Shown: piece by piece, positions 26,377 to 61,000 of the stretch
Layout: each line of letters starts with the position of its first letter
Position numbering within the stretch: position 1 is the first letter of the stretch
NCBI RefSeq assembly: GCF_029633865.1
Contig: NC_079219.1
Coordinates: 14,970,310 to 15,034,309 of the forward strand
Reading direction: 5' to 3'
Source of the DNA: Lampris incognitus
Taxonomy: Eukaryota; Chordata; Actinopteri; Lampriformes; Lampridae
Length of the DNA stretch: 64,000 nucleotides
Made by a program: the position numbers and the translations under genes
The notes under the pieces: generated by a model
Told to the model about the DNA's origin: nothing
The model's input: only the letters and a program-made list of their open reading frames with translations
Databases searched by the model: none

Positions 26377-27054
26377 GCACTGCTTATTTTCTTATTATAG
26401 TTAAAAAACCCAGGGTTCGCCAACCAAGGCAAAAATGTTTAGAGCCGCATGCTGTGATAACGATATCAAAACAACTCTGACCTCATTATTTTTTGCCTGG
26501 TCCTGAAATATTGATGTTTTAACTTGGGTTTAAAATGTTAAAATCACATCATCACATGTTATTGCACAAAATCACAAGTCCCACAAAGATCTAGGTCAAA
26601 GGCTGGGAATAACATCTAAGTTTCCAATCCGCGTGTTTACATGGACCTGAGTATTCCGGTTCTGATCGGGCTTTTGGAGTACCCCCGTCTTTGTGTCTGT
26701 GCATTGCAGTCAATAGAGTGGAACGGATGAACACCAGACAAACGTCTTCATACCTCAGCTGTAGTTTTATTGAGGACAGACGTTGCTGTGATGTCATAGT
26801 TTCAGCGCCGAAAAGGATTACAAGACTTGGTGACAACGGTTCACACGAAAGAAAGAAAAAAAAACAATAAAACCGGAACTCCCCCGCAACCGAAGTACAC
26901 GTCACCAAAATGGACGCCTATGCAACAATCATTACGTCATGTAAACATCACAGCCCGAGTTCAGAAACCTGAATAAGCCCTTATGTCAGTTTTGAGGAAC
27001 CAGATTATGCTAGCTGGAGTACTCCGAAAGAAGCTGTTACTGCTGCATGTTTAA

Positions 27055-27135
27055 CCGGTTATTTTCTTGCCCGGTGCGGGATTCGATACGGGTGTACTTC
27101 ACCACAAGGCGACGTCACTAACCGCTCGGCTAAAG
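27055..27135 (-). repeat. tRNA-like repeat fragment related to the element at 52675-53047
   Basis: The minus strand reads TTTAGCCGAGCGGTTAGTGA then TATCGAATCCCGC, an A-box/B-box arrangement like tRNA-Ser. It is clearly similar to the tRNA-like part of the LTR-like sequence at 52915-53047. No acceptor-stem pairing is evident, so it is not a tRNA gene. Confidence 0.7.
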
Positions 27136-27214
27136 GGTCAGACCCGTTAGCTAGGGACTAATATGTATTATTATTAGTTTACACGTGTATAATACAGCTT
27201 AATCCGGTTTCTGA

Positions 27215-49296: not shown

Positions 49297-49480
49297 CTTA
49301 ATTTAGCTTGTTTCTTAAATATCTTACCATCATTTTCACCAAAGTGTTTTCTTTTTCACCCCTACATTGATTAACTTCAACCTGCCATCTTCATACTCAT
49401 CTTCCATCACCTCCCTTGCTAGCCTAACTCCCTTCCCATCCCACAGAAACTCACTCACTCACTCACTCACACTCCAGGTC

Positions 49481-51955: not shown

Positions 51956-52674
51956 CTGATCCCTGTTCTCTAGGTGCTTAATGGCAAAGTAGGGCCTATC
52001 TTTAGGGTAAGTAGGTGACCTACCTATGTTGTTTATTTTGCTATGTAGTTTACTTGTTTCTCTGCTATTTTCTGGACAGTTTGTGTGTATGGTATGTCAG
52101 GAAGGGTTGTTTAAATGCCAAGGAGTAAAGAAGTCATCTTATTTTTTTGGGCCTCAAAGAATTGTGGCAACTTTTGAATAATAAACAAAAAATAAAATAG
52201 ATAATCCACAAAATGTGAAAAGCATACAACAAAGATTAGGTATTACTGTCTCAATGTGTTAATTACATGCCAATGAAAGGCGTTGAACTGCTCAAAATGC
52301 CAGCTTTGGTCAAGCAATTTCATTTCAGCCAGATCAGAATGACTGTACAGCCTGACTTGGTGATTTTCAAAGTTTAGTAACTTTGTGAAAAAAAGAAAAA
52401 AAAGATAAACAGACCTGCCGCTCCCTAAATGCTCAATACACATGTATTTGCAGGAAAATTAGTAATGAGTTTTAGATCAGTCGCAAAAAAAAAAGTTATG
52501 ATAAGAACTATCTAAAACGATCATGACCGGTCAAAATGACCGGCGGTTTTTAAACTCTATATTCTGAGTTCAACATAAATACCCAATTGAGATATTAATG
52601 CATTGCATATGTTAGTAGCTATGTCTGCAAGGAAACGACTGACACCAAAATTAAAATTTTAAAGACTATAATAC

Positions 52675-53047
52675 TGTAACCTACAAAAAGACCCACTTGC
52701 CAATCGGCCATTGAGTCTTTTTGTTGCGAGTTAGTCAGTTAATTTAGCTTGTTTCTTAAATACTGTAACGTCTTACTATCATTTTCACCCATAGTCACCC
52801 TCCCCGGAGTCACGGCGCTTACTCGACAAGCGCGCCCCCGCGCTTCGTTATTCCCGCGCTCCGAAGAGACTTCTGAGGATCTGCACGCTTCCGGAGACTT
52901 CCGCTGCCACCAATGTAACCGAGCATATTTTCCGCAGCGGGATTCGATCCGATGTTGTACTGCACCACGAGTCGATATCGCTAGCCGCTCGACTAAAGGG
53001 GGCCGAACCCCCTGGCGATCGGCCATTGAGTCCTTTTGTAGGTTACA
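52675..53047 (-). mobile_element. TRIM-like LTR element with a tRNA-like segment
   Basis: 373 bp, TGTAACC...GGTTACA at the ends, flanked by ATAC duplications (52671-52674, 53048-53051). On the minus strand a 133-bp LTR-like unit (53047-52915) is itself TGTAACC...GGTTACA. It includes a tRNA-Ser-like segment with A box TAGTCGAGCGGCTAGCG and B box GGATCGAATCCCG. It is followed by TTGGTGGCAGCGG, resembling the leader of Ty3/gypsy elements, and a 17-codon frame starting MGENDSK. The right part repeats CTCAATGGCCGAT of the LTR but is incomplete. No pol. Confidence 0.65.
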
Positions 53048-53077
53048 ATACTATTTTTAAACATTTTAAACTTCAGA

Positions 53078-54247: not shown

Positions 54248-55390
54248 TTAAACTTCAGAGACGTATGGTCGAACTTGAATATCAAAATTAAAAAAGTGAA
54301 AATATTACCTGAAAAACAAAACGGAAAACACATATTGCTAATCAAACAAACATAGCAGGGCCTATAAAATGTGAAATGTAAAGAACTCAAAATACCTAGT
54401 GAAACAGTCCCAAACAACGACCGGAACTTTAAAAACTACTAGAACGACCAAGGCGGTCATTTTGACCGTTTGGGATTTTCAAAGTTTAACAACTTTGTGT
54501 GTGTGGGGGGGAGGGGGGGGAGATACAGACCTGCCGCTCCCTGAATGCTCCTAAAACTGCATATATTTGCATTAAAACGAGTTTTAGATCCATTGCACAA
54601 AAAAGTTATTATACGATCTACCTAAAACGACCACGAGCGGTCAAAATGACCGCGCGGAATTTGCGCGTCATTGTGCACGTCATGTCACGTGTGTTGTTGC
54701 GTCATTTCCTTCGCAACGTTCAGTTCTTTTTTATATTTAACGTTTTATGTAGGCCTTGTTACGTTTGTTAGATTAGCAGTCTGTGTTTTCCAGGTATTGT
54801 TGCCAACGTGTCTGGTTACAGACGCCGTTTCAGACGCACCATGACTACCACCGAGGCGTTGCAGTGTTTATAGGCGTTGGACACCGGCGATTTTAAATTG
54901 TTTGAAAAATAGTATTAAAGTTGTTAAAATGTTAATTTTGGTGTCAGTCATTTCTTGACAGACATACTAACATATGCAATGCATTAATATCTCAATTGGG
55001 TATTTATCGTGACAGAATATAGAGTTTAAAACCCATCGTTTTAGTAGTTTTTAAGTTCCAGTCGTTGTTTGGGGCTGTTTAAATTGTTATTTTCATTTTA
55101 TTTTTTACATTACAGGCCTTGTTATGTTTGTCAGATTAGCAATATATGATTTCCTTCTTCTTCTTTTTTTTCCAGGTAATATTTTCACGTTTTCGATTTT
55201 GCTATTCCAGTTCGACCACGTCTCTCTGAAGTTTAAATTGTTTAAAAATAGTATTATAGTTGTTTAAATGTGAATTTTGGCTTCAGTTGTTTCCTAACAC
55301 ATATACTAACATATGCAATGCATTAATATCTCAACTGGGTATTTATCTTGACAGAATATAGAGTTTAAAAACTACCGGTCATTTTGACTG

Positions 55391-60671: not shown

Positions 60672-61000
60672 GTGGGTCAAGTGGCCCAGTGGTTAGCACT
60701 GTTGCCTCACAGCAAGAAGGTCCTGGGTTCGAACCCCAGGCCATACCAGGTCCTTTCTGTGTGGAGTTTGCATGTTCTCCCCGTATCGGTGTGGGTTTCC
60801 TCTGGGTGCTCCAGTTTCCTCCCAACATCAAAAAGATATGCATGTTAGGGTTAATATTCCTGTCTGTGCCCCTGACCAAGGCAATGGAAAGAAGAACTGG
60901 AGCTGTTCCCCAGGTGCTGCAGCTGCCGACTGCCCCTATAGTATGGGATGGGATAAATGCAGAGAACAAATTTCATTGAAGGAACACAATGTCAAATAAA
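60672..61000 (+). mobile_element. tRNA-headed SINE (subfamily A)
   Basis: GTGGCCCAGTGGTTAGCACT, B box GGGTTCGAACCCC, TTTGCATGTTCTCCCCGTAT, ending GATGGGATAAATGCAGAGAA and a LINE-like AATAAAGTGGC. Sister copy of 42672-42990. Confidence 0.92.

Follow-up and report, generated by a model that had tools for sequence, protein, structure and literature searches.

The closest described elements are Helenus (TRIMp3; Kojima 2024, PMC10886601), TRIMs that carry a tRNA-like sequence with A and B boxes in each of their two LTRs. In the parts of that account used here, these elements have a primer-binding site (PBS) and a PPT, are flanked by 4-bp duplications in animals, and also occur as solo LTRs. The screen dealt with TRIMs shorter than 1000 bp and without mobilisation proteins. 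The vertebrate primers are tRNA-His, tRNA-Leu or tRNA-Lys; the fish hosts named are sturgeon, paddlefish, several Ostariophysi and coelacanth, and for zebrafish 5575 LTRs and tandem arrays are given. A SINE origin was proposed for the tRNA-like part, human tRNA-Val-CAC was aligned with fish Helenus, and animal Helenus are similar to Gypsy elements at the PBS; as far as these parts go, Pol III transcription was not shown experimentally (PMC10886601). According to the sections drawn on here, the plant element Cassandra has 5S rRNA in the LTR of a TRIM and forms tandem arrays (PMC10886601, PMC7215508), and for the complex LTR elements of Triticeae the fusions were attributed to switches of template in the course of reverse transcription (Sabot and Schulman 2007, PMC1950507).

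Structure of the insertion and of its family

The window, that is, the whole stretch of 64,000 nucleotides analysed, contains a 373-bp insertion at 52675-53047 (minus strand) within a local repeat. It is flanked by the target-site duplication ATAC, with the left copy at 52671-52674 and the right copy at 53048-53051. Two paralogues of the flanking repeat that carry no interruption lie elsewhere in the window and were first matched at 54911-54981 and 55250-55320. When the flanks were fused with a single ATAC, they aligned straight through both paralogues with scores of 202 and 239; with both ATAC copies retained, the scores against the same paralogues were lower (191 and 228). Read from these alignments, the two paralogues show the empty site of the insertion, and the 373-bp insertion with an ATAC duplication given in the original prediction was borne out.

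The 5' LTR (TGTAACC...GGTTACA) occupies 52914-53047 on the minus strand. The 133-bp unit that had been predicted is indeed a repeat, but it is 134 bp long and runs from 53047 to 52914. The consensus scan placed the A box TAGTCGAGCGG of the putative tRNA-like promoter at 52985-52995 (minus) and the B box GGATCGAATCC at 52940-52950 (minus). They are 45 nt apart and match the scan consensus, in the tRNA order and spacing that had been claimed for them. Next comes the PBS (52901-52912, minus), in which 12 nt are complementary to the 3' end of tRNA-Leu plus CCA. The supposed gypsy-like leader is this sequence after the LTR, but it is read here as a PBS, which measures 12 nt in the window copy and reaches 18 nt in 50 of the 59 relatives. 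The internal region common to the family extends over 52828-52913 (minus; 91% over 86 nt), and the purine-rich tract GGGGAGGGTGACTA, at which the 3' LTR begins in other copies and which would act as a primer, lies at 52792-52805 (minus).

A foreign segment with a tiny ORF is present at 52739-52792 (minus). About 43 bp of this segment match 49298-49340 of the window, 3.4 kb away, except for an 8-bp indel, and this is the lone other match in the genome. The match suggests local templated repair or capture as the source of the segment. The ORF, which had been noticed earlier, does exist (52792-52739, minus, 17 codons) but is not a feature of the family; as a family gene it was rejected, since the segment that holds it is matched at one other genome place only.

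The window copy has a single full LTR. Its 3' end (52675-52724), earlier taken for an incomplete second repeat, is instead an inverted LTR start and not a short direct LTR. On the plus strand from 52675, about 35 nt in the LTR sense lead into the element's own antisense, with an overlap at 52690-52710. The turn point is a near-palindrome, TGGCCGATCGCCA in the intact LTR of the window copy. A hairpin of single-stranded DNA is predicted at the turn; it is weak, with a z value of -1.77, and 17 of 200 shuffled sequences fold equally well. The inverted piece stops at the LTR tip, as would be expected if the plus strand from the purine tract had switched template. The inverted ends of the copy comprise 39 nt at 82%, some flank included. 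Judged by this structure, the window copy is a damaged, aberrant fold-back member of its family. The window also contains a second Helenus copy at 27050-27183 (minus), a solo LTR of subfamily A with 95% identity to L061 and with flanks (catg/cgtg) that match at three of four bases.

When the 133-bp unit was searched against the host's own genome (1.48 Gb), 1278 candidates emerged, and the 40 that were scored contained 53 matches. An exact LTR/PBS 20-mer occurs 1970 times (1015 + 955), a count that takes in hybrids and Gypsy copies, and its reversed control does not occur. Fifty-nine places were fetched from the first 100 listed of the 1970, all on one contig (C1); because each of them holds the 20-mer without a mismatch, the sample is biased towards young copies. 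Thirty-seven of these have two direct LTRs and three are fold-backs; the other 19, four hybrids among them, are incomplete through truncation or in other ways.

The two-LTR copies are 351-387 bp in total. The internal region of the relatives is about 104 bp long and ends in a purine tract; the second LTR follows, and 4-bp duplications flank the whole. The purine-rich stretch (e.g., GGGAGAGGGTGACTAC) is immediately 5' of the 3' LTR in the copies inspected and would serve as primer. The duplications of the 37 two-LTR copies were exact in 23, had one mismatch in seven and had two to four mismatches in seven; L066-L068 among the 37 sit in arrays, where inner units cannot display a duplication. Cross-paired control flanks gave an exact 4-bp match in 33 of 1332 pairs. 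The PBS was 18 nt long at 50 of the 59 places, 21 nt at one and 12-17 nt at eight, the 12-nt minimum being imposed by the search pattern. A host tRNA-Leu(AAG) gene with a matching 3' end was found at L112.

In the first set of copies, four of seven two-LTR copies (L005, L027, L028 and L032) have exact duplications. Among its 14 single LTR ends, exact duplications were seen at L002, L015, L016 and L030, the last with a tract in common with L025; the other ends showed none, and several of them are pieces of larger copies. Four more single LTRs include one, L037, whose duplication is exact. Tandem arrays are also present (L041, L067/L068). Most members of subfamily A (TGTAAACTACTAATAAGAC...) are 94-99% identical to the query copy closest to them, and some are near 90%. 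Subfamily B (TGTAACCTACAAAAAGACTC...), of which the window copy is a member, is more diverged, and most of its matches in the 40 scored of 1278 candidates are at 81-90%.

The genome search for the unit, proposed earlier as a check, returned many copies in which paired LTRs are accompanied by a PBS, a purine-rich tract and 4-bp duplications, and solo LTRs as well. Paired terminal repeats, which might have been missing from every copy, are present at 37 of the 59 places, and the tRNA-like part belongs to the LTRs of the family rather than to a SINE inserted by chance. On these grounds of sequence, the family is an abundant miniature retrotransposon with a tRNA-like promoter in its LTRs.

The tRNA-like part of the LTR

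The scan consensus comprised 11 of 11 positions in the A box, at least 10 of 11 in the B box, and a spacing of 30-74 nt. Nine A/B pairs were found on the two strands of the window, one in the insertion and two at the 27-kb copy; six simulated sequences of equal total length had 1, 0, 0, 0, 2 and 0. In the first set, 22 of 31 LTRs carry a pair 44-45 nt apart under the strict consensus; the strict pair is absent from eight, and L002 has a pair only at a different spacing. Two further pairs, each 44 nt apart, at 60682 and 63301 (plus strand) probably represent ordinary tRNA-derived SINEs.

When subfamily A (35 copies) is compared with subfamily B (18 copies), the tRNA-like stretch is the least divergent part of the LTR: the majority base is the same in approximately 91% of this stretch, and outside it agreement is 67% in the first 48 columns and 74% in the last 31. 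Inside each subfamily, conservation of the B box does not exceed that of the U3 part (93% vs 96% in A, 92% vs 94% in B), in a comparison that placed the box segments two positions off the true boxes.

TTTT is a stop signal for Pol III. On the sense strand, TTTT is found in two of the 37 two-LTR copies and AAAA in 35, and shuffled sequences gave 15.75 with TTTT; because the 37 copies share ancestry, this count amounts to one or two observations from few ancestors. The window copy does have a sense-strand T run, which is located within the folded-back end.

ARAGORN with default settings found no tRNA in the window, and Rfam found none in the window at gathering scores or in 12 loci at E ≤ 10; the LTR unit was therefore rejected as a true tRNA. 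With lowered thresholds, ARAGORN gave weak overlapping candidates on both strands, which were regarded as noise. Similarity to human tRNA-Val-CAC in a simple alignment was not above that of shuffles (scores of 9, 10 and 11, with shuffle maxima of 13, 12 and 14). A 5S-type LTR, as in Cassandra, was also rejected: no 5S match was found within the LTRs of the 12 loci at E ≤ 10, and the one 5S match (L029, E 0.88) is outside the LTR. Inferred from its sequence, the element is likely to be transcribed by Pol III.

Hybrids, fold-backs and joins to tRNA-Leu

A second LTR family, first met joined to tRNA-Leu sequence, has an LTR of 253 bp that contains AATAAA; the same consensus scan found no A/B pair in this LTR. 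A genome search with it gave 527 first-look candidates, of which 40 were scored. At C6, two such LTRs 6.0 kb apart belong to a 6.3-kb element with a CTAT/CTAT duplication, which was sampled as three pieces. Its RT piece matches Pfam RVT_1 (E 3.4e-39), and the best solved relative is Ty3. With a Gypsy-type RT between LTRs and a 4-bp duplication in the sampled sequence, the partner family is assigned to Ty3/Gypsy. The PBS junction of this Gypsy is identical to that of Helenus over 19 nt, and its LTR tips (TGTAACCTA...CTCGGTTACA) are near-identical to the Helenus tips, matching subfamily B. Past the PBS, the Gypsy leader did not align with the internal region of Helenus.

At four of the 59 places (L056, L081, L084 and L100), the 5' LTR is the Gypsy LTR at 94-96% and is followed by Helenus internal sequence. 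L081 has a Helenus LTR at its end and an exact ctaa/ctaa duplication, and the flanks of L100 match at three of four bases; both were compared by eye. The flanks of the fold-back hybrid L056 do not match, and L084 is truncated. Genome-wide, exact junctions number 84 for Gypsy LTR/Helenus, six for the reciprocal arrangement (with a pattern covering subfamily A LTR ends only), and 37 for Gypsy's own. Five of the 84 and four of the six were inspected, and all were as expected, each of the four reciprocal places having a Helenus LTR and then the Gypsy leader. In L116, the order is Gypsy LTR, Helenus internal region, Helenus LTR and Gypsy leader. The hybrid loci joined at the shared PBS are L056, L081, L084, L100 and L116-L119. 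The 84 junctions may represent a few events that were amplified. We read the hybrids as products of strand transfer in trans, from one cDNA to another packaged with it, at the PBS that both share, and the PBS joins suggest co-packaging and mobilisation of Helenus in trans by this Gypsy.

The 20-nt 3' end of tRNA-Leu occurs eight times in the genome, and all eight occurrences were inspected; one is the tRNA gene (L112). In the fold-back L111, tRNA-Leu sequence with CCA continues into antisense Helenus LTR. L107 and L108 are Gypsy LTRs fused to tRNA-Leu 3' sequence past the usual 18 nt, and L109 is a Helenus LTR with PBS complementarity longer than 18 nt. L104 is a bare tRNA-Leu fragment without CCA. 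In both L105 and L110, the tRNA-Leu 3' end with CCA is followed by TGTTTCATTCTGTTCCG, and they are perhaps another element family with the same primer. The switch point of L111 is at AGTCTCTTCGGAG, a sequence that Helenus internal regions have in common with the tRNA-Leu of L104; the tRNA gene L112 differs at this point. In the Helenus internal region, e.g., at 52913-52828 of the window (minus), AGTCTCTTCGGAG is in the sense orientation, the same as in the tRNA-Leu of L104.

Further fold-backs are L007 and L034; L046, L047 and L099 among the 59; L111, through tRNA-Leu; and L056, with Gypsy LTRs. Exact duplications surround three of the eight fold-backs (the window copy, L007 and L047). At L034, L099 and L111, three of four bases match, which counts for little because at least three of four bases matched in 242 of 1332 control pairs. 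The duplication is ambiguous at L046, and L056 has none.

Proposed origin and comparison with known systems

We consider it very probable that the family is a Helenus-type TRIM transcribed by Pol III and mobilised by Gypsy, and that the window copy was folded back during plus-strand synthesis. Transcription by Pol III would begin close to the A box in the 5' LTR and continue through the whole element, and the Helenus RNA would be packaged in particles of the Ty3/Gypsy with the same PBS. The minus strand would be primed by tRNA-Leu and the plus strand by the purine tract, and the Gypsy integrase would insert the product. In the window copy, the plus strand from LTR nucleotide 1 might have turned back at the U3 hairpin TGGC-CGATC-GCCA; after the fold-back, both DNA ends would be LTR starts. 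The integrase would have accepted two LTR starts because the LTR tips are mutually inverted (TGTAACC/GGTTACA). To a wider model we give even chances: the Pol III miniature would be co-packaged with one Gypsy, frequent plus-strand transfer in trans at the PBS would produce the two-way hybrids, and the fold-backs (3 of 59) would be a regular second integration substrate with two U3 ends.

Some observations could instead point to an origin of the fold-backs and hybrids after insertion, by inversion or by recombination among neighbouring copies. Tandem copies are known (L041, L067/L068), three of the six reciprocal junctions are located 189-242 bp from a Gypsy-LTR/Helenus junction, the segment of the window copy that matches a site 3.4 kb away suggests local repair, and an exact duplication is missing in five of the eight fold-backs. 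However, exact duplications do surround the other three and the hybrid L081, and the shared stretch of about 19 nt at which the hybrids are joined would be short for ordinary recombination; we regard this origin as unlikely. The presence of the tRNA-like part in the LTRs of both subfamilies, of which it is the least divergent part, makes it quite improbable that the LTR is an ordinary one into which a tRNA-derived SINE inserted on a single occasion, with no role in the element, although the B box has no special conservation within subfamilies and a SINE origin of this part has been proposed for Helenus, in the section cited (PMC10886601). As for a MITE, i.e., a non-autonomous DNA transposon with terminal inverted repeats and a tRNA-like stretch by chance, the window copy alone could be taken for one from its inverted ends (39 nt, 82%, some flank included) and 4-bp duplication. 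Direct terminal repeats in 37 of 59 relatives and the tRNA-Leu PBS after the first repeat leave this a negligible probability, and the MITE was rejected on the direct LTRs and PBS of the family.

With the Gypsy-mobilised, Pol III-transcribed TRIM as the preferred reading, one Gypsy family is singled out by position in the mobilisation of TRIMs with Pol III promoters, and the hybrids make its role testable. The fold-backs and the tRNA-LTR joins would preserve, in the genome of an animal that looks like a fish, traces of the intermediates of reverse transcription.

By anatomy, the family is of the Helenus type, a class assigned on the published description. It shares with Helenus, as far as the latter is described in the sections cited, the A and B boxes in the LTR, the tRNA-Leu PBS, 4-bp duplications, solo LTRs and tandem arrays. 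Two tRNA-like LTRs are reflected in the 37 of 59 places with two direct LTRs and in the strict boxes of 22 of 31 LTRs, and the shortness of a TRIM without mobilisation proteins in the two-LTR copies of 351-387 bp. The PBS corresponds to a host tRNA (tRNA-Leu, 18 nt in 50 of 59, with the host gene present), and the 4-bp duplication of animals is exact in 23 of 37 copies, with one mismatch in seven (control, 33 of 1332 exact). In contrast, fold-backs, Gypsy-Helenus hybrids and joins to the primer tRNA are not mentioned in those sections (PMC10886601).

The parallel with Cassandra drawn in the original prediction is right, and had already been drawn for animals as Helenus (PMC10886601, in the part cited): both Cassandra and the present family are TRIMs whose LTR holds a promoter of Pol III type, and both form tandem arrays, whereas Cassandra is 5S-derived and from plants, and the promoter here is tRNA-like. 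The complex LTR elements of Triticeae, in the account cited, are also from plants; in the present genome, a TRIM and a Gypsy are united, and they meet at the PBS. Folded-back TRIMs and Helenus-Gypsy hybrids did not appear in titles or abstract openings of the open-access literature among the matches listed. Elements of this kind have been known since 2024 as Helenus (PMC10886601); the published accounts met, as represented by the portions cited, do not extend to the hybrids, the partner Gypsy or the joins with tRNA.
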